From NCBI GenBank assembly GCA_944392935.1, contig CALXYI010000046.1:1-59070 (forward strand): a DNA stretch of 59,070 nucleotides, written 5' to 3'. The notes under the pieces are model-generated. The model searched no databases. It saw nothing but the letters and a program-made list of their open reading frames with translations, and had not been told where the DNA came from. Position numbers and translations under genes: made by a program. Positions 2,555-48,389 of the stretch are shown piece by piece (positions within the stretch are counted from its first letter, which is position 1; every line of letters begins with the position of its first letter). Origin of the DNA: an uncultured Spirochaetaceae bacterium (lineage in GTDB: Bacteria > Spirochaetota > Spirochaetia > Sphaerochaetales > Sphaerochaetaceae).

Positions 2555-5428
2555 TCAGAACCTGCCGAGGCCCCTGAGGATCTTCTCTCCTGTTATCGGC
2601 CATGAACGGACCCATACGCCCGTTGCATCGGCAATTGCCATCGCTATCGCGGGAGCTGCGCCATTGCATGCGATCTCCGAGATGGATTTCGCCCCGAACG
2701 GTCCGTACTGGTCACAGACATCGATCAGCACGGCACGGAAATCATCAGGCGCCTCCTCTATCATCGGAGGGCAGTAACCGGTGAAATCCGGCGTAAGGCA
2801 CCTGCCGTCCCCGTCGAGGACGAGATCCTCATAGAGAGTATGCCCGATGCTCTTCATCGCAGCGCCATACATCTGGCAGAGCGCGAGCTCCGGGTTTATC
2901 GGCGTGCCTGCATCCTGCAGTGCATAGAACCTGCGCACCTTTATCTCTCCCGTACGCACATTCACCGCCACTTCCGCGAAATGGGCGCCATACGGTATAG
3001 CGAAGTTCGGAGTAGCGAACGCGCCGGTGCCTATCAGCTGCCCGCGGCCATCACCTGCCGTTGCATCATGGGACAGACGCGCATAATCGATTTCCCTGCC
3101 GCTTCTCGAGACGACGCGGCCGGGGTATTCAATGGACAGGTCCTCTTCCTTCTCGCCCATCTGCAGAGCGGCTTCCTTCAGTATCTTCCCTGCAAGATCC
3201 TTCGCTGCATTGAGCGATGCATTGCCTGAGAAATAGGTACCGGAGGAGGCATAGGCACCGGTATCGAAGAGACATGAATCAGTATCCCCGGATACCACGG
3301 ACACCACCGACAGGGGTACCTTCAGCACCTCTGCCGCAACCTTTGCAGAGAGCGTATCGAGTCCTGTGCCGAGATCGGCGCCTCCGGAAAGGACAAGGAC
3401 AGTGCCATCCGTAAGGAGCTTGACCTGTGCATTCCCCTGGTCGAGACCCGGAAGCCCAGAGCCCTGCTGTATCATGGCAAAGCCCTTGCCGATCTTCCAG
3501 TCAGGATCCCCTGAGTCCTCCTTCCTGCCCCATCCGATCATCTCACCGCCCTTCTCAAGGGCTTCCCTGAGACCGCAGGATCCTACCGGGACGACAGCGC
3601 CTTCACGTCCCTCGCCAAGCCCGCGGAGGATCTCCAGCATATAGCCTTCCTCGACTATGTTCTTCTTCGCCATCTCCAGCGGATCGATCCCGAGCTTCAT
3701 CGCAAGCTCTCCCATCGCGCTCCCTATGGCGAAGTATCCCTTCGGGGCTCCATATCCCTGATAAGCCCCGGTAGGCGGGATATTCGTATAGTACGTGATG
3801 AGATCATAGTACATGTTATCGACACGGAATATGGGGAGTGTCTTCGAGGAGGCATTCATCGGAACGGTGAGGCAGTGGTTGCCATACGGACCTGTATTCG
3901 CACGCACATCCATGTAGATGGCTGTTATCGTTCCGTCTTTCTTGCCGCCCATCTTCACACGGATCCGCATCGGATGGCGCGTGGAATTGGCATAGAACTC
4001 CTCTGCACGCGTATTGCGGTAGTAGATGGGACGGCCTGTCTTCCAGACTGCATATCCCACGAGATCCTCGACAAGGACATCCTGCTTCGATCCATAGCCT
4101 CCGCCGACGCGCTCCTTTATCACATGGACCTTGTTCTCCGGGATTGAGCATATCTTCGCGACGATGCGCCTCACATGGTACGGGACCTGCGTCGATGCAT
4201 GGATCACAAGCCTTCCGCCCTCCATCAGGGCATAGCAGACATGCGGCTCAAGAGGGGTGCACTGGGGCTGGCTTGTCTGATAGGTCTCATCGACTATGGC
4301 ATCGGCCTCTGCGAACCCCTTCTCCATATCGCCGATGCCTCCATGTGCCGCTGCTGCGATGTTATGCCTTATATCCGCATGGAGAGGGAACTGATAGATC
4401 ACGTCCCCGTCATCGGGATCAGCGGCCTTGTTGTACTCATCCAGATCATCAGGGGCTCCTGACACATAGCGCACGATGCCGCTGTGCACAAGCGGAGCGC
4501 CATCAGCCATGGCCTCCTCAACGGTGAACACAGGCTTCAGAGGATCGTAGACCACATGTATCAGCTCCGCCGCGGCCGCCGCGGCCTCATCGCTTTCCGC
4601 CACTATGGCGGCAACCCTGTCACCGACATGGCGTACTGTCCTGTTCAGCAGGCGCCTGTCATACGGCGAGGGTTCCGGGCATCCCTGGCCGGCCTGCATG
4701 TAATAGACATCGGGGCAGCTGAATGCCGTTATGATATCAACGACGCCATCGACCTTCATCGCCTCGGATGTGTCTATGCTGCGTATCACGGCATGAGCGA
4801 ACGGCGAGCGGAGGACGTGCATGACGCATGTGTGTGGCGGCACCTTGTCCTCGACGAAGAGCCTGTCGCCTGCCACCAGCGCTTCACCGTCTATCTTTCC
4901 CGTAGGCTTCCCGACATAGCGGAGGCTGCTCCTGAAGGACGGCCCGGCCTCGAGTGAGATGCTGCCTGTCCTGCGCTTCTCCCTTACCATATCGACGGCA
5001 AGGTAGTAGTGCTCATAGCCGGCATCCCTTATGAAGATACCGGAAAGGGCTTCCTTTATATCCTCCTTCGTCGGATCGGGATTGCCCTCAAGGAGGAACG
5101 TCAGCGCAAGGGCTGCAGCAGGAGCGTTGTATGCGCTCTGCACGACACCGGCCTTCACCATGGCCTCCTGCACATCATTTATGCCCTGGGCGCTCCTCAG
5201 GCTCTCTGCAGTCCTTATCTCCGCACCTTCCGCCTGATAGAGCATGATGAGATTTGAGTATCTCAGCCTGCCATTGAAGATGATCGTATCGGATCCTGCG
5301 AAGCCCTCGCCGTCATCGGAATCGCGCACGGTATTGTACCCCGCCCTGTAGAGGGCATCCCGGAGCCTTTCATCCTCCCTTCCCTGCAACAGTACGGACC
5401 GTCCGTTTATAGTTGTCCTTGCTTCCAT
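2555..5428 (-). CDS. xdhD: XdhD-like molybdenum hydroxylase with cysteine-free ferredoxin domain
   Basis: A 957-residue molybdenum hydroxylase, practically the size I recall for E. coli XdhD (YgfN). Residues 1-150 align with a [2Fe-2S] subunit, but all ligand positions are replaced: QCGFC became QSAYN (97-101), ICRCTGY became IFIRDAGY (131-138), and the first cluster loop is SDDGEGFAGSD (37-47). The rest is the aldehyde oxidase/xanthine dehydrogenase Mo-binding region: VGGGYGSKQD, GAYQGYGAPKGYF, the GADLGTGLDT loop, and GPFGAKSISEI with the expected catalytic glutamate. Reported relatives are linked to selenium-dependent hydroxylases or selenate reduction. The substrate is not readable; purines are likely. 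It starts 12 bp after the YgfM-like gene, behind GGGAGGG. Confidence 0.9.
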   Translation of the reverse strand: MEARTTINGRSVLLQGREDERLRDALYRAGYNTVRDSDDGEGFAGSDTIIFNGRLRYSNLIMLYQAEGAEIRTAESLRSAQGINDVQEAMVKAGVVQSAYNAPAAALALTFLLEGNPDPTKEDIKEALSGIFIRDAGYEHYYLAVDMVREKRRTGSISLEAGPSFRSSLRYVGKPTGKIDGEALVAGDRLFVEDKVPPHTCVMHVLRSPFAHAVIRSIDTSEAMKVDGVVDIITAFSCPDVYYMQAGQGCPEPSPYDRRLLNRTVRHVGDRVAAIVAESDEAAAAAAELIHVVYDPLKPVFTVEEAMADGAPLVHSGIVRYVSGAPDDLDEYNKAADPDDGDVIYQFPLHADIRHNIAAAAHGGIGDMEKGFAEADAIVDETYQTSQPQCTPLEPHVCYALMEGGRLVIHASTQVPYHVRRIVAKICSIPENKVHVIKERVGGGYGSKQDVLVEDLVGYAVWKTGRPIYYRNTRAEEFYANSTRHPMRIRVKMGGKKDGTITAIYMDVRANTGPYGNHCLTVPMNASSKTLPIFRVDNMYYDLITYYTNIPPTGAYQGYGAPKGYFAIGSAMGELAMKLGIDPLEMAKKNIVEEGYMLEILRGLGEGREGAVVPVGSCGLREALEKGGEMIGWGRKEDSGDPDWKIGKGFAMIQQGSGLPGLDQGNAQVKLLTDGTVLVLSGGADLGTGLDTLSAKVAAEVLKVPLSVVSVVSGDTDSCLFDTGAYASSGTYFSGNASLNAAKDLAGKILKEAALQMGEKEEDLSIEYPGRVVSRSGREIDYARLSHDATAGDGRGQLIGTGAFATPNFAIPYGAHFAEVAVNVRTGEIKVRRFYALQDAGTPINPELALCQMYGAAMKSIGHTLYEDLVLDGDGRCLTPDFTGYCPPMIEEAPDDFRAVLIDVCDQYGPFGAKSISEIACNGAAPAIAMAIADATGVWVRSWPITGEKILRGLGRF

Positions 5429-5440
5429 AGTCCCTCCCGC

Positions 5441-6124
5441 TCAGAAAAGCACGGAGGCAAGATATCTCTTGTACTCCGCGGATCCCGTAAGATCATCCCT
5501 GATGTCGATTCCCTTCCATGCATCCCTGCTGTGTCCGCACGCCGTTCCCGATCCAGAGATCGAGAATGCATGGCAGCCCATAGACTCCGCTCCGATCACG
5601 GCAGCATGGGAATGCGAGGTCCTGCCTATCCTCCTCACACGTCCTTCCCGTCCTTCATCGACAAGGAACGAGAGGATGAGCGCACGGCATTCCGTCTTCC
5701 GGAAAAACTCATCAGCGCTCTTCACCTTCACGCCTTCGCTGCACATGAGCTCCACGCTGCACTCTCCGGCAAGCAGGGCAGCGGCAAGATAGCTGTCGCT
5801 CCGGCGGAGAGCGAAATTCCCGCCTATCGTTGCAGCATTCCGCAGCTGAAGCGATGCGCAGAATGATGCGGCCTCCCTTATGAATGCCGGGACAAGCAGG
5901 GACTCCTTCACATCCTGGAGCGTCGTGAGCGCACCGATGCGCACCTTCCCGCCTGCATTGGATATGCCTGACAAAGGCAGGGAGGAGACATCGATGATCT
6001 CCCTGACCCCGGAGAGAGAGGAACCGAGACGCATCATCTCGGTACCGCCTGCAAGATATGCCGATCCCTCCAGGCTGTGCCGGAGAGCTACGGCTTCCTC
6101 CGCTGTTCTGGCAATGTGTATCAT
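5441..6124 (-). CDS. YgfM-like FAD-binding subunit of molybdenum hydroxylase
   Basis: A 227-residue CO-dehydrogenase-flavoprotein-type FAD subunit. It carries the two FAD loops: AYLAGGTEMMRLG near the N-terminus and ATIGGNFALRRSDSYLAA mid-protein. A C-terminal GSAEYKRYLASVL is typical of the family. The frame stays open upstream to 6274, but the ATG at 6124 has an ideal GAAGGAGGAGCG site and sits just after the preceding gene ends, so I chose it. It would pass electrons between the Mo protein and an acceptor. Because the xdhD-like partner has lost its clusters, how electrons reach this flavin is an open question. It is shorter than the other FAD subunit in this operon. Confidence 0.85.
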   Translation of the reverse strand: MIHIARTAEEAVALRHSLEGSAYLAGGTEMMRLGSSLSGVREIIDVSSLPLSGISNAGGKVRIGALTTLQDVKESLLVPAFIREAASFCASLQLRNAATIGGNFALRRSDSYLAAALLAGECSVELMCSEGVKVKSADEFFRKTECRALILSFLVDEGREGRVRRIGRTSHSHAAVIGAESMGCHAFSISGSGTACGHSRDAWKGIDIRDDLTGSAEYKRYLASVLF

Positions 6125-42790: not shown

Positions 42791-43891
42791 TCAGCCGAAG
42801 ATCGGGATGAGCTCGGACATCAGGAGACCGCCTGCAAGAACAGATGCGATCTGGCCCGAGACGTTGGCGCCGAGAGCGAACGGCAGAAGATGATTCTGCT
42901 TGTTGGCCTCGATACCGACCTTCTGGACAACGCGGGATGACATCGGGAATGCTGAGATACCTGCACCTCCGATGAGCGGATTGATCTTCTTATCCTTCGG
43001 AAGGAAGATGTTGACTACCTTGAGGAAGATGACACCGCAGGCCGTATCGAAGATGAATGCCACGAGGCCGAATGCCATGATCATCAGCGTCTCCGGGCGG
43101 AGAAGCGCAGGACCGGACATCATCGGCGAGATGGCAAGGCCGAGCATCAGCGTGATGAGCGGCGAGAGCATATCCTGGGCAGCGCGCGAGAGGTTGTCAA
43201 GCACACCGCACTCCCTGAGGAGGTTTCCGAACATGAGCATACCGACAAGGGCAGCTGAATCCGGAGCGAGGATACCGCAGACAACCGTCGTCACGATCGG
43301 GAATACTATCCTGGTCGTCTTGGAGACGGAAGCGGCGGAATAATGCATCTTTATCGCCCTCTCCTTCTTCGTCGTCGTTGCCTTGAGCACTACCGGCTGG
43401 ATCATGGGCCCGAGGGCCATGTAGCAGTATGCGACTACGAGGAGGGCGGCTACATAGTTGGAATGCAGGCGCTGCGATACGAGGATCGCGGTAGGACCGT
43501 CCGCAGCTCCGATGATACCGATGGATGCAGCATCATTGAGCGGGAATCCCATGAGTGAGGCGATGATCATCGAGATGAAGATACCACCCTGTCCTGCAGC
43601 TCCGATGAAGATAAGCCATGGCTTGGAGATGAGCGGTCCGAAATCAATCATCGCACCGATTCCTATGAAGAGAAGAAGCGGGAACGCTTCTGCGCTCTCG
43701 ATACCTACGTTGTACAGCCACTGGAGGATCGCATTGTCCTGGAGCATGACTGATCCCGGCAGGTTGACGAGTATAGCGCCGAAACCCATTGGCAGGAGGA
43801 GCGTAGGCTCCATCTGCTTCCTGATCGCCAGGTAGATGAGAATCAGACCAACGACGATCATGATCAGATTATAAATCATTTCGGTGTTCAT
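42791..43891 (-). CDS. oadB: Na+-transporting decarboxylase beta subunit (OadB/GcdB/MmdB family)
   Basis: A 366-residue polytopic protein. The beta subunit of oxaloacetate, methylmalonyl-CoA or glutaconyl-CoA decarboxylase couples decarboxylation of carboxybiotin to Na+ export. Conserved motifs are GIIGAADGPTAILVSQ (the essential Asp) and PLIGGAGISAFPMSSRVVQ. The SGPALLRPETLMIMAFG segment is also conserved. The start is uncertain: the ATG at 43891 lacks a clear ribosome binding site and an in-frame GTG lies at 43930. Only a 40-residue gamma-like gene follows. No carboxyltransferase (alpha) or biotin carrier is in the window, so the enzyme partner must lie elsewhere. Confidence 0.92.
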   Translation of the reverse strand: MNTEMIYNLIMIVVGLILIYLAIRKQMEPTLLLPMGFGAILVNLPGSVMLQDNAILQWLYNVGIESAEAFPLLLFIGIGAMIDFGPLISKPWLIFIGAAGQGGIFISMIIASLMGFPLNDAASIGIIGAADGPTAILVSQRLHSNYVAALLVVAYCYMALGPMIQPVVLKATTTKKERAIKMHYSAASVSKTTRIVFPIVTTVVCGILAPDSAALVGMLMFGNLLRECGVLDNLSRAAQDMLSPLITLMLGLAISPMMSGPALLRPETLMIMAFGLVAFIFDTACGVIFLKVVNIFLPKDKKINPLIGGAGISAFPMSSRVVQKVGIEANKQNHLLPFALGANVSGQIASVLAGGLLMSELIPIFG

Positions 43892-43956
43892 AACGGTAAC
43901 GATGATATAGGATTGCGGAGTCTTTGTCACTCGATTGGCAATGCTTCGCAGACAAA

Positions 43957-44013: not shown

Positions 44014-44613
44014 TCAGCCCAGGTTCATGAAACTATGCACAGGTATGCTGAAGACAATACCCATGCCCTTCTTCTTCAGCATCTCCATTGCGCTGACAGC
44101 CTCTATGACGGCATCGGCCTTGCTCCGCTCGATGACTATCATCAGTATCTCCTTCTCCGGCACAAGGGGGGCACCGAAGAACTTCACATCATCGGGAGTG
44201 CTCGTGCCGTGCGCATTTATCACTGTCCCGCCGCCGGCACCGGCCTTCCGTGCCTCGGCCATTATATCCTCGCTGTATCCCTTCTCGCAGATTATCTCGA
44301 CAAGCACCCATCCTGATTCCATACGGCTATCCTCCATGATCCCATCGCGCGCGGCATCTATGACAAGGACGACGCCCTTTGCCTTCACGCTATGGACAGC
44401 GCTGAGGATCCTCTCGGAATCCTCTTCCCTTATTAGGCTGGTGAGGACCTCCATCCTCGAATCCCCCAGACCGAGAGCGGCAAGCACCGCGCTTGATGCC
44501 GTGCCGCGTGCAAGGCAGACCGTCCCCCCGGGTGCTCCCGCCTGCCGGGCTGCCGCCATAACCCTGGAGCTCTGTCCCTTGCGGACTATAGCCATCATCG
44601 TGCACCAGCTCAT
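44014..44613 (-). CDS. Tandem PII-like signalling protein
   Basis: A 199-residue protein made of two PII-like domains. Residues 1-98 have RQAGAPGGTVCLARGTASS and an EVLTSLI strand. Residues 100-199 have RKAGAGGGTVINAHGTSTPD, then KFFGAPLVPEKEILMIVI, the better-preserved copy. PII folds bind nucleotides and control transporters or enzymes by docking. The ATG overlaps the DUF1538 membrane protein stop as ATGA, so this is probably its dedicated regulator, analogous to GlnK with AmtB. The frame is open far upstream inside the DUF1538 gene, but the ATGA junction sets the start. Confidence 0.82.
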   Translation of the reverse strand: MSWCTMMAIVRKGQSSRVMAAARQAGAPGGTVCLARGTASSAVLAALGLGDSRMEVLTSLIREEDSERILSAVHSVKAKGVVLVIDAARDGIMEDSRMESGWVLVEIICEKGYSEDIMAEARKAGAGGGTVINAHGTSTPDDVKFFGAPLVPEKEILMIVIERSKADAVIEAVSAMEMLKKKGMGIVFSIPVHSFMNLG

Positions 44614-46061
44614 CCCGCTGCCTCCTTCTCCGCTTTCCTTACCCTTGTCTGATAGATTATACCAAGAAGCTCTATTACGAGTATCGGCATCATGGCGATC
44701 ATCGCGATGATCCCGAACGATGATGCAAGCGTCGCCTCCGAAGATCCAGAGGCCGCCCCCATCGCGAACGGCAGCAGGAATGTCGAGCTCATCGGGCCTG
44801 TAGCCACCCCGCCCGAATCGAATCCTATTGCCGAGAAGAGTCCAGGAGTCCTTATCATGAAGAGCATTATGAGGATGTAGCCTGGAAGCAGGAATGTCCA
44901 TATCGAAAGCGAATGCACCGTACGCACAAGCGCCATCACCACCGCAAGCCCTACGCCGAGAGCAAGGGCCACGAGCATTATGCGGCGCGGAATCCTGCCT
45001 TCCGAGACATCCTCGACCTGTTCCGTGAGGACCATCACGGCAGGCTCCGCAAGCACGACGCAGAGCCCGAACACGAAGCCCACGGCATATAGAAGCGCCG
45101 GGCTTATGAGGATAAGAGCATCCCCAAGCTCACGTGCGACCTCCGAGAAGGAATACTCGACACCGGTGAAGAAGAGCACTATCCCGATATAGGCATAGGC
45201 TATGCCCACGAAAGCCCTTGTCGCCTCAATGCGCGGCATCTTCATGAAGAGCAGCTGCAGCAGGAGGCATACCGCGACGAGGGGAAGGAGCGATATCCCC
45301 ACCTCTACGAACTTCGATGAGAAGAGCTCGGAGAGCGGGATCACGGCCTCCGCCTCCGCGGCAGCCTCTATCTCCGTCCCACCTGCCGATGACAGCCCCA
45401 GCACCAGCACAGCGATGACAGGACCGATCGATGAGAGTGCGACGTATCCGAACTCCGCCTCATCATCATGCTTCCTGAGCGCGGCGACTCCCATGCCGAG
45501 AGCCATTATGAACGGCACGGAAAGCGGTCCTGTAGTGGCACCTCCCGAATCGAAGGCTATGGAAACGAAGAAATCATCGGAGAAGGCGGCGATGGAGAAT
45601 ATCGATATGTAGCTGAGGAGGAAGATGATCTTCATCGGGAGCTTCAGTATGGTGCGTGCGATGGAGATGGAGAAGAAGATCCCCACCCCTATCGCGATGG
45701 CAACGACAAGGGAACCCACGGAGACACCGGGACGCACTGCATGGACCTGGGTAGCAAGGACCTGCACATCCGGCTCAGGGATGGTTATTATCATGCCGAG
45801 CGCAACGGATGCGGCAAGCATCAGGGGGAGATTGCGGCTCCTTGTGAGCGTGGCCCCTATCTTGGTGCCTATCGGGATCAGGCCGACATCCACTCCGGAC
45901 AGGAACAGCGTGAGGCCTCCGATGACAAGGAGGCACGAGAGGAGGAACCTGCCGAGCTGCGCGCTGTCCATGACGCCGAGAAGCAGTGAGAGGATTATCG
46001 TGAAAAGACCTATCGGAAGCACCGAGAGCGTGACTTCCCTGAGCTGCTTCAGGATATCCAA
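44610..46061 (-). CDS. DUF1538 family membrane protein (two-repeat transporter-like)
   Basis: A 483-residue membrane protein with about 12 hydrophobic segments and clear internal duplication. FDSGGATTGP (170-179) pairs with FDSGGVATGP (414-423). EPDVQVLATQV (96-106) pairs with AEPAVMVLTEQV (339-350), and FLSGVDVGLIP pairs with FFTGVEYSFSE. Such inverted or tandem two-repeat folds with polar re-entrant motifs are typical of secondary transporters. The function is not established. The start is TTG at 46061 with AAGGAGGAACAG seven bases upstream. It is co-translated with a tandem PII-like protein that may gate it. Confidence 0.85.
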   Translation of the reverse strand: MDILKQLREVTLSVLPIGLFTIILSLLLGVMDSAQLGRFLLSCLLVIGGLTLFLSGVDVGLIPIGTKIGATLTRSRNLPLMLAASVALGMIITIPEPDVQVLATQVHAVRPGVSVGSLVVAIAIGVGIFFSISIARTILKLPMKIIFLLSYISIFSIAAFSDDFFVSIAFDSGGATTGPLSVPFIMALGMGVAALRKHDDEAEFGYVALSSIGPVIAVLVLGLSSAGGTEIEAAAEAEAVIPLSELFSSKFVEVGISLLPLVAVCLLLQLLFMKMPRIEATRAFVGIAYAYIGIVLFFTGVEYSFSEVARELGDALILISPALLYAVGFVFGLCVVLAEPAVMVLTEQVEDVSEGRIPRRIMLVALALGVGLAVVMALVRTVHSLSIWTFLLPGYILIMLFMIRTPGLFSAIGFDSGGVATGPMSSTFLLPFAMGAASGSSEATLASSFGIIAMIAMMPILVIELLGIIYQTRVRKAEKEAAG

Positions 46062-46276: not shown

Positions 46277-46495
46277 ATGAAAAAGAGCTATGAAATCGAA
46301 GTGGACTGCGCGGCATGCGCTGGCAAGATGGAAGCGGCGGCAAGGAAGACGGAAGGAGTCAGGGACTGCATCGTCGACTTCATGATGCAGCGCATGATAG
46401 TCGAATTCCAGGATGGAGCCGACAGAGCTGCCGTAATGGAGAATGTGAGGCATAACTGCAGGAAAGCCGAAAGGGACTGCGAAGTCTTCATCTGA
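46277..46495 (+). CDS. Heavy-metal-associated (HMA) domain protein
   Basis: A 72-residue ferredoxin-like metal-binding domain. The metal loop is EVDCAACAGKM (C11, C14), followed by the usual VRDCIVDFMMQRMIVEF strand pattern. It would bind Zn2+, Cd2+ or Cu+ in the cytoplasm and hand it to the exporter next to it. The ATPase lacks an N-terminal HMA, so this looks like the same module made as a separate chain. AAAGGTGG precedes the ATG at 46277; the downstream ATPase starts 10 bp after the stop. Confidence 0.88.
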   Translation: MKKSYEIEVDCAACAGKMEAAARKTEGVRDCIVDFMMQRMIVEFQDGADRAAVMENVRHNCRKAERDCEVFI

Positions 46496-46505
46496 GAGGT
46501 GCATC

Positions 46506-48389
46506 ATGAACAGGAAACAGAGGATCATGCTGATGCGCATAATCGCATCAGCGCTGATGATGATCGGCCTGCACTTCATCCCGGCCCAGGGAGTGCTGGG
46601 CTTCGTGCTTTACATGATACCCTACCTTACCGTCGGATACGACATACTCCTGAAGGCAGTGCGGGGAATCATCAGAGGGCAGGTGCTTGACGAGTGCTTC
46701 CTGATGGCCGCTGCCACCGCAGGAGCCATCGCGCTGGCCATATATGAGGGAAGCGGCGACTACACCGAGGCTATCGCGGTGATGCTCTTCTACCAGATCG
46801 GGGAGCTCTTCCAGAGCTATGCCGTCGGCAGGAGCCGCCGCAGCATCACCGCACTGATGGACATACGTCCTGACTATGCGAATGTGGAGGATGGCGGGAA
46901 GCTGGAGAAGGTGGATCCGGATGATGTCGCAATCGGTTCCGTGATAATCGTGCAGCCCGGCGAGAAGGTGCCTATCGACGGTATCGTCGTATCGGGAAGC
47001 TCATCGCTCGACACAAGCGCACTGACAGGAGAGAGCCTGCCGCGCGATATCCATGAAGGTGAGGAGATAATCTCAGGATCGATCAACATGACCAGCGTAC
47101 TGAAGGTGAAGACAACGAAGGAATTCGGGGAATCGACCGTATCGAGGATCCTGGATCTCGTGGAGAACGCCAGCTCCCGCAAGTCGAAGTCTGAGGATTT
47201 CATCTCGAAGTTCGCCAGGATATACACTCCCGCCGTGTGCCTCGGAGCCCTCCTTCTCGCCCTGCTCCCGCCATCGCTGAACCTTATTTCAGGGAATGCC
47301 GCAGGATGGGAGGCATGGATCTACCGTGCTCTCACCTTCCTGGTCATATCATGCCCATGCGCGCTCGTGATCTCCATCCCTCTCTCATTCTTCGCCGGTC
47401 TGGGAGGCGCGAGCAGCGCAGGCGTGCTCGTGAAGGGCTCGAACTATCTGGAGACCCTGTCGAAGACGAAGATCGTCGTCTTCGACAAGACCGGAACGCT
47501 TACGGAAGGCACATTCGAAGTCAGCGGCATACATCATGGCACGATGCCCGATGACGAACTGCTGGAGTATGCGGCACTGGCAGAGAGCGCCTCCTCCCAT
47601 CCGATAGCGAAGAGCCTGCAGAAGGCATACGGCAAGCCGATAGACCGCAGCAGGGTCTCCTCCATAGAGGAGATAAGCGGCAGCGGCATCACGGCCTGTG
47701 TGGATGGCCATCCGGTAGCCTGCGGCAATGACAGGCTGATGCGGCAGCTGGGACTCGGATCCATCCCCTGCCACAGCACCGGCACGGTGATCCACATAGC
47801 AGTCGATGGAGCCTATGCAGGCCATATAGTCATAAGCGACTCCATAAAGCCCCATTCAGCGGAAGCTGTGAGGGAACTCAGGGCGGCAGGCATAGAGAGG
47901 ACGGTGATGCTCACCGGGGACACGGAGAAGGTCGCCGCCGAAGTCGCCAGGAAGCTCGGTATAGACGAAGTGCACAGCGAGCTGCTGCCTGAGGATAAGG
48001 TGGAGAAAGCCGAAGAGCTCATCAGAACCAAGCCGCCGAAGGCTAAGCTGGCATTCGTAGGGGATGGCATCAACGATGCACCTGTGCTCGGACGTGCGGA
48101 TATAGGTATCGCCATGGGTGCCATGGGCTCCGATGCGGCGATAGAGGCTGCCGATGTGGTGCTTATGGATGATGATCCTTTGAAGATAGCGAAGGCCATA
48201 AGGATTTCCCGCAAGTGCCTTGGCATCGTCTACCAGAACATCGTATTCGCGATAGGCATCAAGGCGCTGTGCCTAATCCTGGGCGCAATGGGGATAGCCG
48301 ATATGTGGCTTGCCATCTTCGCCGATGTGGGCGTGATGGTCGTGGCGGTGCTCAACGCGATCAGAGCCCTCTTCGTGAAGAACCTGTGA
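46506..48389 (+). CDS. P1B-type ATPase, Zn/Cd/Pb exporter
   Basis: A 627-residue heavy-metal P-type ATPase. Motifs are LTGES (173-177), the membrane metal site CPC (C283-P284-C285) and DKTGTL (phosphorylated D327). The nucleotide-domain His lies in ASSHPIAKSL, and the hinge is GDGINDAP. Near the C-terminus N-x7-K (NIVFAIGIK) and DVG match the P1B-2 class, which exports Zn2+, Cd2+ and Pb2+. There is no N-terminal HMA domain; the separate HMA gene just upstream supplies it. AGAGGTG precedes the ATG. A GC-rich terminator follows. Confidence 0.92.
   Translation: MNRKQRIMLMRIIASALMMIGLHFIPAQGVLGFVLYMIPYLTVGYDILLKAVRGIIRGQVLDECFLMAAATAGAIALAIYEGSGDYTEAIAVMLFYQIGELFQSYAVGRSRRSITALMDIRPDYANVEDGGKLEKVDPDDVAIGSVIIVQPGEKVPIDGIVVSGSSSLDTSALTGESLPRDIHEGEEIISGSINMTSVLKVKTTKEFGESTVSRILDLVENASSRKSKSEDFISKFARIYTPAVCLGALLLALLPPSLNLISGNAAGWEAWIYRALTFLVISCPCALVISIPLSFFAGLGGASSAGVLVKGSNYLETLSKTKIVVFDKTGTLTEGTFEVSGIHHGTMPDDELLEYAALAESASSHPIAKSLQKAYGKPIDRSRVSSIEEISGSGITACVDGHPVACGNDRLMRQLGLGSIPCHSTGTVIHIAVDGAYAGHIVISDSIKPHSAEAVRELRAAGIERTVMLTGDTEKVAAEVARKLGIDEVHSELLPEDKVEKAEELIRTKPPKAKLAFVGDGINDAPVLGRADIGIAMGAMGSDAAIEAADVVLMDDDPLKIAKAIRISRKCLGIVYQNIVFAIGIKALCLILGAMGIADMWLAIFADVGVMVVAVLNAIRALFVKNL

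Follow-up and report, generated by a model that had tools for sequence, protein, structure and literature searches.

What does a membrane protein of the DUF1538 family do together with a PII-like protein whose gene overlaps its own? The question is raised by a locus in a stretch of 59,070 nucleotides (the window), contig CALXYI010000046.1 of assembly GCA_944392935.1, from an uncultured Spirochaetaceae bacterium. A preliminary description of the window, made from the sequence alone, had interpreted the two products, by analogy with AmtB-GlnK, as a possible uncharacterised ion or solute channel gated by a nucleotide-sensing plug. Our comparative analysis favors a different assignment, namely that the DUF1538 protein is, with fair probability, a cation/proton antiporter under the control of a PII-like protein of its own.

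The DUF1538 gene lies on the minus strand at 46061-44610, encodes 483 amino acids (aa) and starts with TTG behind AAGGAGG. The PII-like gene follows on the same strand at 44613-44014 (199 aa, ATG start) and shares ATGA (44610-44613) with the DUF1538 stop; its own AAGGAGG is located inside the 3' end of the DUF1538 gene. A 4-base overlap with the DUF1538 gene is seen in 43 of the 87 Spirochaetota PII genes, a count in which four genes are without a measure and the start was taken as the start codon nearest to the DUF1538 stop, a choice that favors overlaps. Candidate promoters and terminators between 42600 and 46600 occur at the frequency found in shuffled sequence, leaving the operon ends unmarked.

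The DUF1538 transporter

The 483-aa protein matches PF07556 (DUF1538) with 375.4 bits in two stretches (190.7 and 191.1 bits for the domains, cut-off 22.6), and no other Pfam family scores above its cut-off. The first repeat, UmpA-like, is encoded at 45393-46007 and the second, UmpB-like, at 44655-45278, both on the minus strand; the two halves are homologous (hhalign probability 100, E-value 8e-44). Each carries one copy of the FDSGG-ATGP motif pointed out in the preliminary description, FDSGGATTGP at residues 170-179 (45525-45554, minus strand, calculated by arithmetic and checked on the DNA) and FDSGGVATGP at residues 414-423 (44793-44822, minus strand, by arithmetic). Among the NCBIfam models, UmpA (NF041627) matches residues 5-223 with 116.9 bits and UmpB (NF041628) residues 251-469 with 101.4 bits, below the equivalog cut-offs of 490 and 500. 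Judged by sequence, the protein looks like an UmpA-UmpB fusion and is a homologue of UmpAB, not a proven equivalent.

UmpAB of Halomonas zhaodongensis consists of two DUF1538 proteins encoded by overlapping genes and is a Na+(Li+,K+)/H+ antiporter, with activity measured in everted vesicles of Escherichia coli KNabc (PMC5484666). The family thus already includes a characterised member, so the word 'uncharacterised' has to be dropped, and so does 'channel', since the measured relative is an antiporter. The window protein and UmpAB share their Pfam family and the arrangement of two homologous halves, UmpA preceding UmpB. Overlapping genes are found in both cases, within the published pair there and between the transporter and PII genes here. 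The systems differ in that UmpAB is encoded by two genes and the window protein by one open reading frame (ORF), though split forms occur in Desulfovibrionia, and in the sub-threshold equivalog scores. The text of the UmpAB report mentions neither P-II nor PII (PMC5484666). More generally, in the main texts naming DUF1538 or UmpAB (subscription papers and preprints lie outside the coverage), a PII partner is never mentioned, the lone 'PII' string being part of a motif string; within the same coverage, the listed titles and abstract beginnings, with some passages, from the broader literature contain nothing on a DUF1538-PII pairing.

The distribution of charged residues over 70 aligned rows suggests the orientation of the two halves. 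In the first half, loops 73-79 and 139-143 have mean net charges of +2.4 and +1.1, whereas their second-half counterparts have +0.1 each; in the second half, loops 273-277 and 352-359 and the C-terminus have +2.2, +1.8 and +2.6, against -0.3, +0.1 and -2.3 for the first-half counterparts. Positive charge therefore falls on opposite loop sets, and by the positive-inside rule we infer that the halves are inverted repeats.

The AlphaFold2 (AF2) model of the protein (predicted local distance difference test score, pLDDT, 93.3; predicted template modelling score, pTM, 0.92) contains four short helices, 97-109, 163-175, 340-352 and 407-419, beside the Glu-Pro and Phe-Asp motifs. Residues E96, P97 and D171 of the first repeat and E339, P340 and D415 of the second are invariant in 70/70 and, in another alignment, 20/20 rows. 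The short helices are probably re-entrant and likely form the ion site. The DUF1538 alignment covers 69 of the 81 locus proteins.

Though the model is confident, it has no clear match among solved structures, from which the novelty of the fold does not follow. The best row of the VIA structural search has Z 5.9 over 91 residues with a root-mean-square deviation (rmsd) of 3.5, and a sequence search of the PDB with the DUF1538 profile yields no chain at E <= 10. Assignment to a fold class from the weak rows (glutamate, nucleoside and phosphate transporters, Z 3-4) was attempted and dropped, these matches being too weak for use; equally, absence from the list of structural matches excludes no fold class.

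Pairing and domain number across genomes

The pairing of the two genes, noticed in the preliminary description, is strongly conserved in the sets of loci examined. Among 296 sampled Spirochaetota genomes, 84 have DUF1538 matches; 83 genomes with 89 DUF1538 ORFs were scored, a fragment (G055) being left out and one locus (L128, G202) being truncated at the end of its contig. Of the 88 DUF1538 ORFs longer than 250 aa, 83 are directly followed on the same strand by a PII-like gene. The five exceptions are L048, L049 and L050 (both in G281), L105 (G295) and the second copy in L046, which is immediately preceded by the PII gene; in G281 and G295 a tandem PII gene is found elsewhere in the genome (L126 and L127). 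Thus all 82 Spirochaetota genomes with a DUF1538 ORF longer than 250 aa hold the PII-like gene.

The second set comprises the best 80 of at least 580 confirmed contig stretches, from Spirochaetota, Bacillota, Desulfovibrio, one Planctomycetota and one Caldisericia metagenome-assembled genome. Here the PII-like gene directly follows 79 of 81 DUF1538 copies, the misses being L182 (contig edge) and a second copy in L138, which contains the same genes as L046. DUF1538 is present in 44 of 149 Desulfovibrionia genomes, with the PII-like gene next in all 41 loci having a DUF1538 ORF longer than 180 aa, and in 67 of 196 genomes of Clostridia, where the PII-like gene occurs in 29 of the 30 best-scoring loci and the remaining locus ends at a contig edge. 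Nine plasmid records match as well; an annotated P-II gene lies directly downstream in five of the six examined (the sixth is unannotated there), and among the five are plasmids of Methylocystis rosea, which carries DUF1538 as two genes, and of Chelativorans, whose first DUF1538 gene is short. Overlaps, counted among the first three sets (Clostridia not included), amount to three DUF1538 genes common to the Spirochaetota and best-80 sets and one common to the best-80 and Desulfovibrionia sets. Since no genome profiled has more than five PF00543 matches, chance adjacency should be negligible. No viral copy was confirmed among 99 pattern matches.

Three further Desulfovibrionia loci (L292, L298 and L315) contain DUF1538 fragments, some of them probably decayed copies; L292 also has a PII-like ORF.

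One natural fusion joins the partners. In G261, which shares its family with the window genome, L048 encodes at 3444-5959 a DUF1538-DUF1538-PII polypeptide, with a tandem PII gene upstream; its PII-like domain is recognized by the family profile (2e-25) and by BLAST (E-value 6.7e-8).

The number of PII domains, judged from length, appears from these sequences to be linked to the transporter architecture, though the rule is not absolute: split transporters mostly go with one domain, fused ones with two or three. In Desulfovibrionia, transporters split into two genes and having a PII neighbour carry one domain (27/27) and fused ones two (12/12); of two further loci, L298 has split fragments without PII and L302 a single 209-aa DUF1538 ORF with two PII domains. 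In 11 of the best 80 loci, a fused transporter is accompanied by two consecutive one-domain PII genes. Chains with three PII domains were found in 20 Spirochaetota loci with a fused transporter, and DUF1538 is enlarged in 16 of these; enlarged DUF1538 with a partner of two-domain length is seen in L114, cut by a contig edge, and in the second copy of L120. No lone PII domain was seen beside a complete fused DUF1538 locus (L341 and L318 run off the ends). L319 from Clostridia is an exception, combining a split transporter with two one-domain PII genes. In a quick DUF1538 tree, which is provisional (69 chosen rows, midpoint root, one very long and perhaps badly joined branch, L297), the split type occurs in two places, beside the three-domain type and beside the two-domain type, so that more than one origin of the link is possible.

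The three-domain chains are related to the two-domain type (hhalign 97-99%). Four domains, first guessed from the length of the 364-436 aa chains, were rejected, as the alignment and hhalign show three. Pfam misses such chains: L111 has no family at E <= 0.01, and L120 scores 18.9 bits against the cut-off of 25. Single-domain profiles reach canonical PII with hhalign probabilities of 62% (N), 32% (D2) and 37% (D3), and these domains are tied to PII because the C-terminal domain links them (92%).

The PII-like domains and nitrogen PII

The 199-aa protein matches PF00543 with 46.4 bits in two stretches (cut-off 25), in agreement with the two PII-like domains initially described. The N-terminal domain (residues 1-92; 44338-44613, minus strand) contains GGT and is homologous to the C-terminal one (residues 98-199; 44017-44322, minus strand), with an hhalign probability of 99.7% and an E-value of 2e-26. 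In each half of the AF2 model (pLDDT 89.0, pTM 0.85), strands and helices succeed one another as in PII. The C-terminal half superimposes on E. coli GlnB with 1.6 Å over 85 residues and on GlnK with 1.8-2.1 Å over 88-97 residues (Z about 8 for GlnB/GlnK chains, up to 3.4 Å for other PII rows). Among the first Foldseek rows for the tandem are both PII chains (E about 1e-4) and ferredoxin-like proteins that are unrelated, and in VIA pumps of the AcrB type rank above PII (best Z 9.6, 155 residues, rmsd 3.8). The AcrB match aligns both halves with paired pump subdomains and is a likeness of arrangement only.

Conservation was assessed in 69 rows; the underlying alignment takes in 68 of 69 candidate tandem chains (L174 was dropped) and excludes split and cut-off chains. 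In the C-terminal domain, G128 and T130 are present in 69/69, E153 in 68/69 and K154 in 65/69 rows; in the N-terminal domain, G37 is present in 66/69, T38 in 58/69 and A39 in 57/69 rows, and T31, which corresponds to the invariant T130, in 37/69. The two copies have thus diverged, as initially proposed. The position of the GDGK lysine is occupied in the C-terminal domains by I, V, L, M, F or A in 69/69 rows and never by K (0/69); canonical PII proteins from the same phylum have GDGK in 15/15 cases, though these were sampled by the pattern GDG[KR]. K154 falls at or beside a canonical PII position in HMMER and hhalign alignments, the register being unsure. The C-terminal-type domain retains its signature GGT...ARG...FFG..PEKE although the classical ATP-site lysine is lost. 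Of the proposed nucleotide sensing, then, the canonical form is doubtful, and a different ligand, as in SbtB or PstA, is possible by analogy.

In the domain tree, built from a chosen subset of 84 rows with few alignment columns, canonical PII proteins fall into one group on a branch of 2.15, with support of 100/100. By this measure, GlnB/GlnK stand apart from the PII-like family. An ordinary nitrogen PII that is merely co-transcribed with the transporter would fit the PF00543 membership and the plasmid annotation 'P-II family nitrogen regulator', yet the separate tree group and the missing lysine already disfavor it, as does the gene content of the genomes. The single PF00543 match in the window genome (assembly 94% complete) is this tandem gene, and a profile search of the same assembly found no match to AmtB (PF00909). 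In four close relatives that lack DUF1538, PF00543 is likewise without a match, so that the two families are absent together. An AmtB match is lacking in 10 of the 16 genomes tested, and none of these ten has a PF00543 match above 45 bits. We regard a nitrogen PII at this locus as extremely improbable.

In G226 (C33, 11812-13434), AmtB and canonical PII matches fall within the same 573-aa open frame and thus form an AmtB-GlnK fusion; PII matches in similarly long frames in G086, G153 and G157 suggest the same fusion there.

A proposed regulated antiporter and the alternatives

We suggest for the DUF1538 protein a role as a secondary, UmpAB-type cation/H+ antiporter in the membrane, in which the two subunits are joined in one chain and, by extension from UmpAB, Na+ or K+ is the probable cation. 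The inverted repeats would each contribute a Glu-Pro and a Phe-Asp motif, at short and probably re-entrant helices, to a likely ion site. The product of the overlapping gene would act as its dedicated cytoplasmic regulator, docking through its T-loops on the cytoplasmic face of the transporter; binding of a small ligand in the C-terminal-type domain could make it either lock or release the transporter. A plug-like mechanism for the pair would follow AmtB-GlnK by analogy. Taken further, the pair might represent a new class of inverted-repeat cation/H+ antiporters with a purpose-built PII switch, in which domain number tracks fusion of the transporter and the three-domain chain may amount to a PII trimer in a single polypeptide; we put forward this combination tentatively, as a possibility that we rate below even.

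Several observations weigh against the proposal of a regulated antiporter. Those on the transporter side are that the UmpA and UmpB equivalog cut-offs are far from met, because of which the transported ion may differ from that of UmpAB, and that a Foldseek search of the PDB with the DUF1538 model gives nothing at E <= 0.001 (283 rows at E <= 10). Both would suit a DUF1538 protein that moves something other than Na+/K+ against H+, or a gated channel that the PII partner plugs. We find this rather unlikely, as both repeats have the Glu and the Asp of the motifs without exception and the one characterised member in the literature found is a cation/H+ antiporter (PMC5484666).

On the side of the partner, the canonical nucleotide residues are absent from the PII-like domains, and Pfam makes no call for the fused PII-like domain of L048 at E <= 0.01. 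The PII-like chain could be a permanent component of the antiporter with a structural or assembly role, its fold kept as a scaffold with no ligand switch, and the canonical ATP lysine missing in 69/69 rows, the N-terminal domains without T31 (32/69), the near-obligate pairing in the sets examined and the single fusion agree with such a role. What speaks against it is the apparent retained pocket in the PII-like protein, whose G and T we take to be those of the PII pocket. Further, a 4.2-kb clone, for which no PII gene is described, was enough for UmpAB to work in E. coli (PMC5484666). We therefore consider a purely structural subunit unlikely. The same clone counts against the regulated antiporter as well, because it makes PII dispensable for basal transport there.

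The remaining difficulty is that some tandem PII genes stand apart from DUF1538. G091 and G291 hold a tandem PII gene and have no DUF1538 match, the tandem PII of G281 is located away from both DUF1538 copies, and in G295 (L127, 4616-6968) it directly precedes a gene for an NhaC-type Na+/H+ antiporter (PF03553), the DUF1538 gene being on another contig without an adjacent partner. These cases would be expected if the PII-like protein acted elsewhere, for instance on other antiporters or on enzymes, and shared only the operon with the transporter. The adjacency counts given above (83/88, 79/81 in the best 80 of at least 580, 41/41, and 29/30 best-scoring loci), the fusion in L048 and the tie between transporter architecture and PII domain number argue against this, and we consider it improbable. 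A second system of tandem PII and NhaC was rejected as it is based on the single case of L127, the PII search over the 296 genomes having yielded mostly DUF1538-linked genes. Relatives of this NhaC in the flanks of the other loci number two, both on the opposite strand; that of L197, which matches weakly, is located 236 bases past the PII gene.

As a regulated antiporter, the DUF1538-PII pair would extend the known PII-transporter module and would form no new category. GlnK plugs the pore of AmtB (PMC10710835), and the transporter gene stands beside a PII gene in that system as in ours, whereas the transporter family is unrelated and the PII-like domains here belong to another group and number two or three per chain. 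SbtA is a Na+-coupled transporter locked by the AMP-bound PII-like protein SbtB, a logic comparable to that proposed here, although SbtB is a separate, trimer-forming protein (PMC10710835). In a profile search with the PII-like family, SbtB is found weakly (E-value 0.46). The best profile match (E-value 1e-6) is to a P-II family nitrogen regulatory protein, a chain in 9p1x. This chain is presumably NifI. The NifI1-NifI2 system likewise has paired, non-identical PII proteins, though its target is nitrogenase, in contrast to the membrane antiporter proposed here. The c-di-AMP PII-like proteins PstA/DarA have a PII fold without TGxxGDGKI (PMC4316997) and thus share the lack of the canonical GDGK motif; they differ in that the PstA motif TKLxxxGGFLxxGNTT was not seen by eye in the PII-like protein P0001 and that the domains here are in tandem and adjoin a transporter gene. 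In a spirochaete, BB0017 of Borrelia (YitT/DUF2179) also ties a PII-like soluble domain to a membrane part; it is one polypeptide with four predicted transmembrane segments and belongs to a different family (PMC6516651).

The gene pair occurs in gut spirochaetes, clostridia, sulfate reducers and others, and on alphaproteobacterial plasmids. Its members, still labeled 'DUF1538' and 'P-II family nitrogen regulator' in public annotation, would, on the assignment as a regulated antiporter, look like the two parts of a single machine serving cation and pH homeostasis. Were the PII part a switch, Na+/K+-proton exchange would come under a small-molecule signal through a PII group that lies outside nitrogen control, and the nitrogen-regulator label now in use would be misleading. 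Since chains with one, two and three PII domains occur naturally, they offer a direct test of how the PII ring fits the symmetry of the transporter.

The genes around the pair are variable. Just 3' of the PII-like gene in the window, 42791-43912 on the minus strand encodes an oxaloacetate-decarboxylase beta-like Na+ pump subunit (PF03977). A common operon with this gene as a general feature was rejected, its relatives being found, among the loci searched, only in the window and in L044 and L132, where they lie upstream of the pair. Diverging from the pair at 46277-48389 on the plus strand are genes for a small protein, which scores 24.7 bits for a heavy-metal-associated domain, just under the cut-off of 24.8, and for a P-type ATPase (PF00122). 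Clustering of neighbours over two locus sets identified no universal third partner; the commonest neighbours are three gene kinds, found in up to 30 loci, which we take from their sequences to be Pfs-, BirA- and LuxS-like. Genes of these usual kinds, presumably Pfs-, LuxS- and BirA-like again, also enclose a tandem PII gene in two spirochaete genomes without a DUF1538 match (L225, 4953-5582; L226, 4792-5448), where the transporter seems to have been lost and the PII gene kept.

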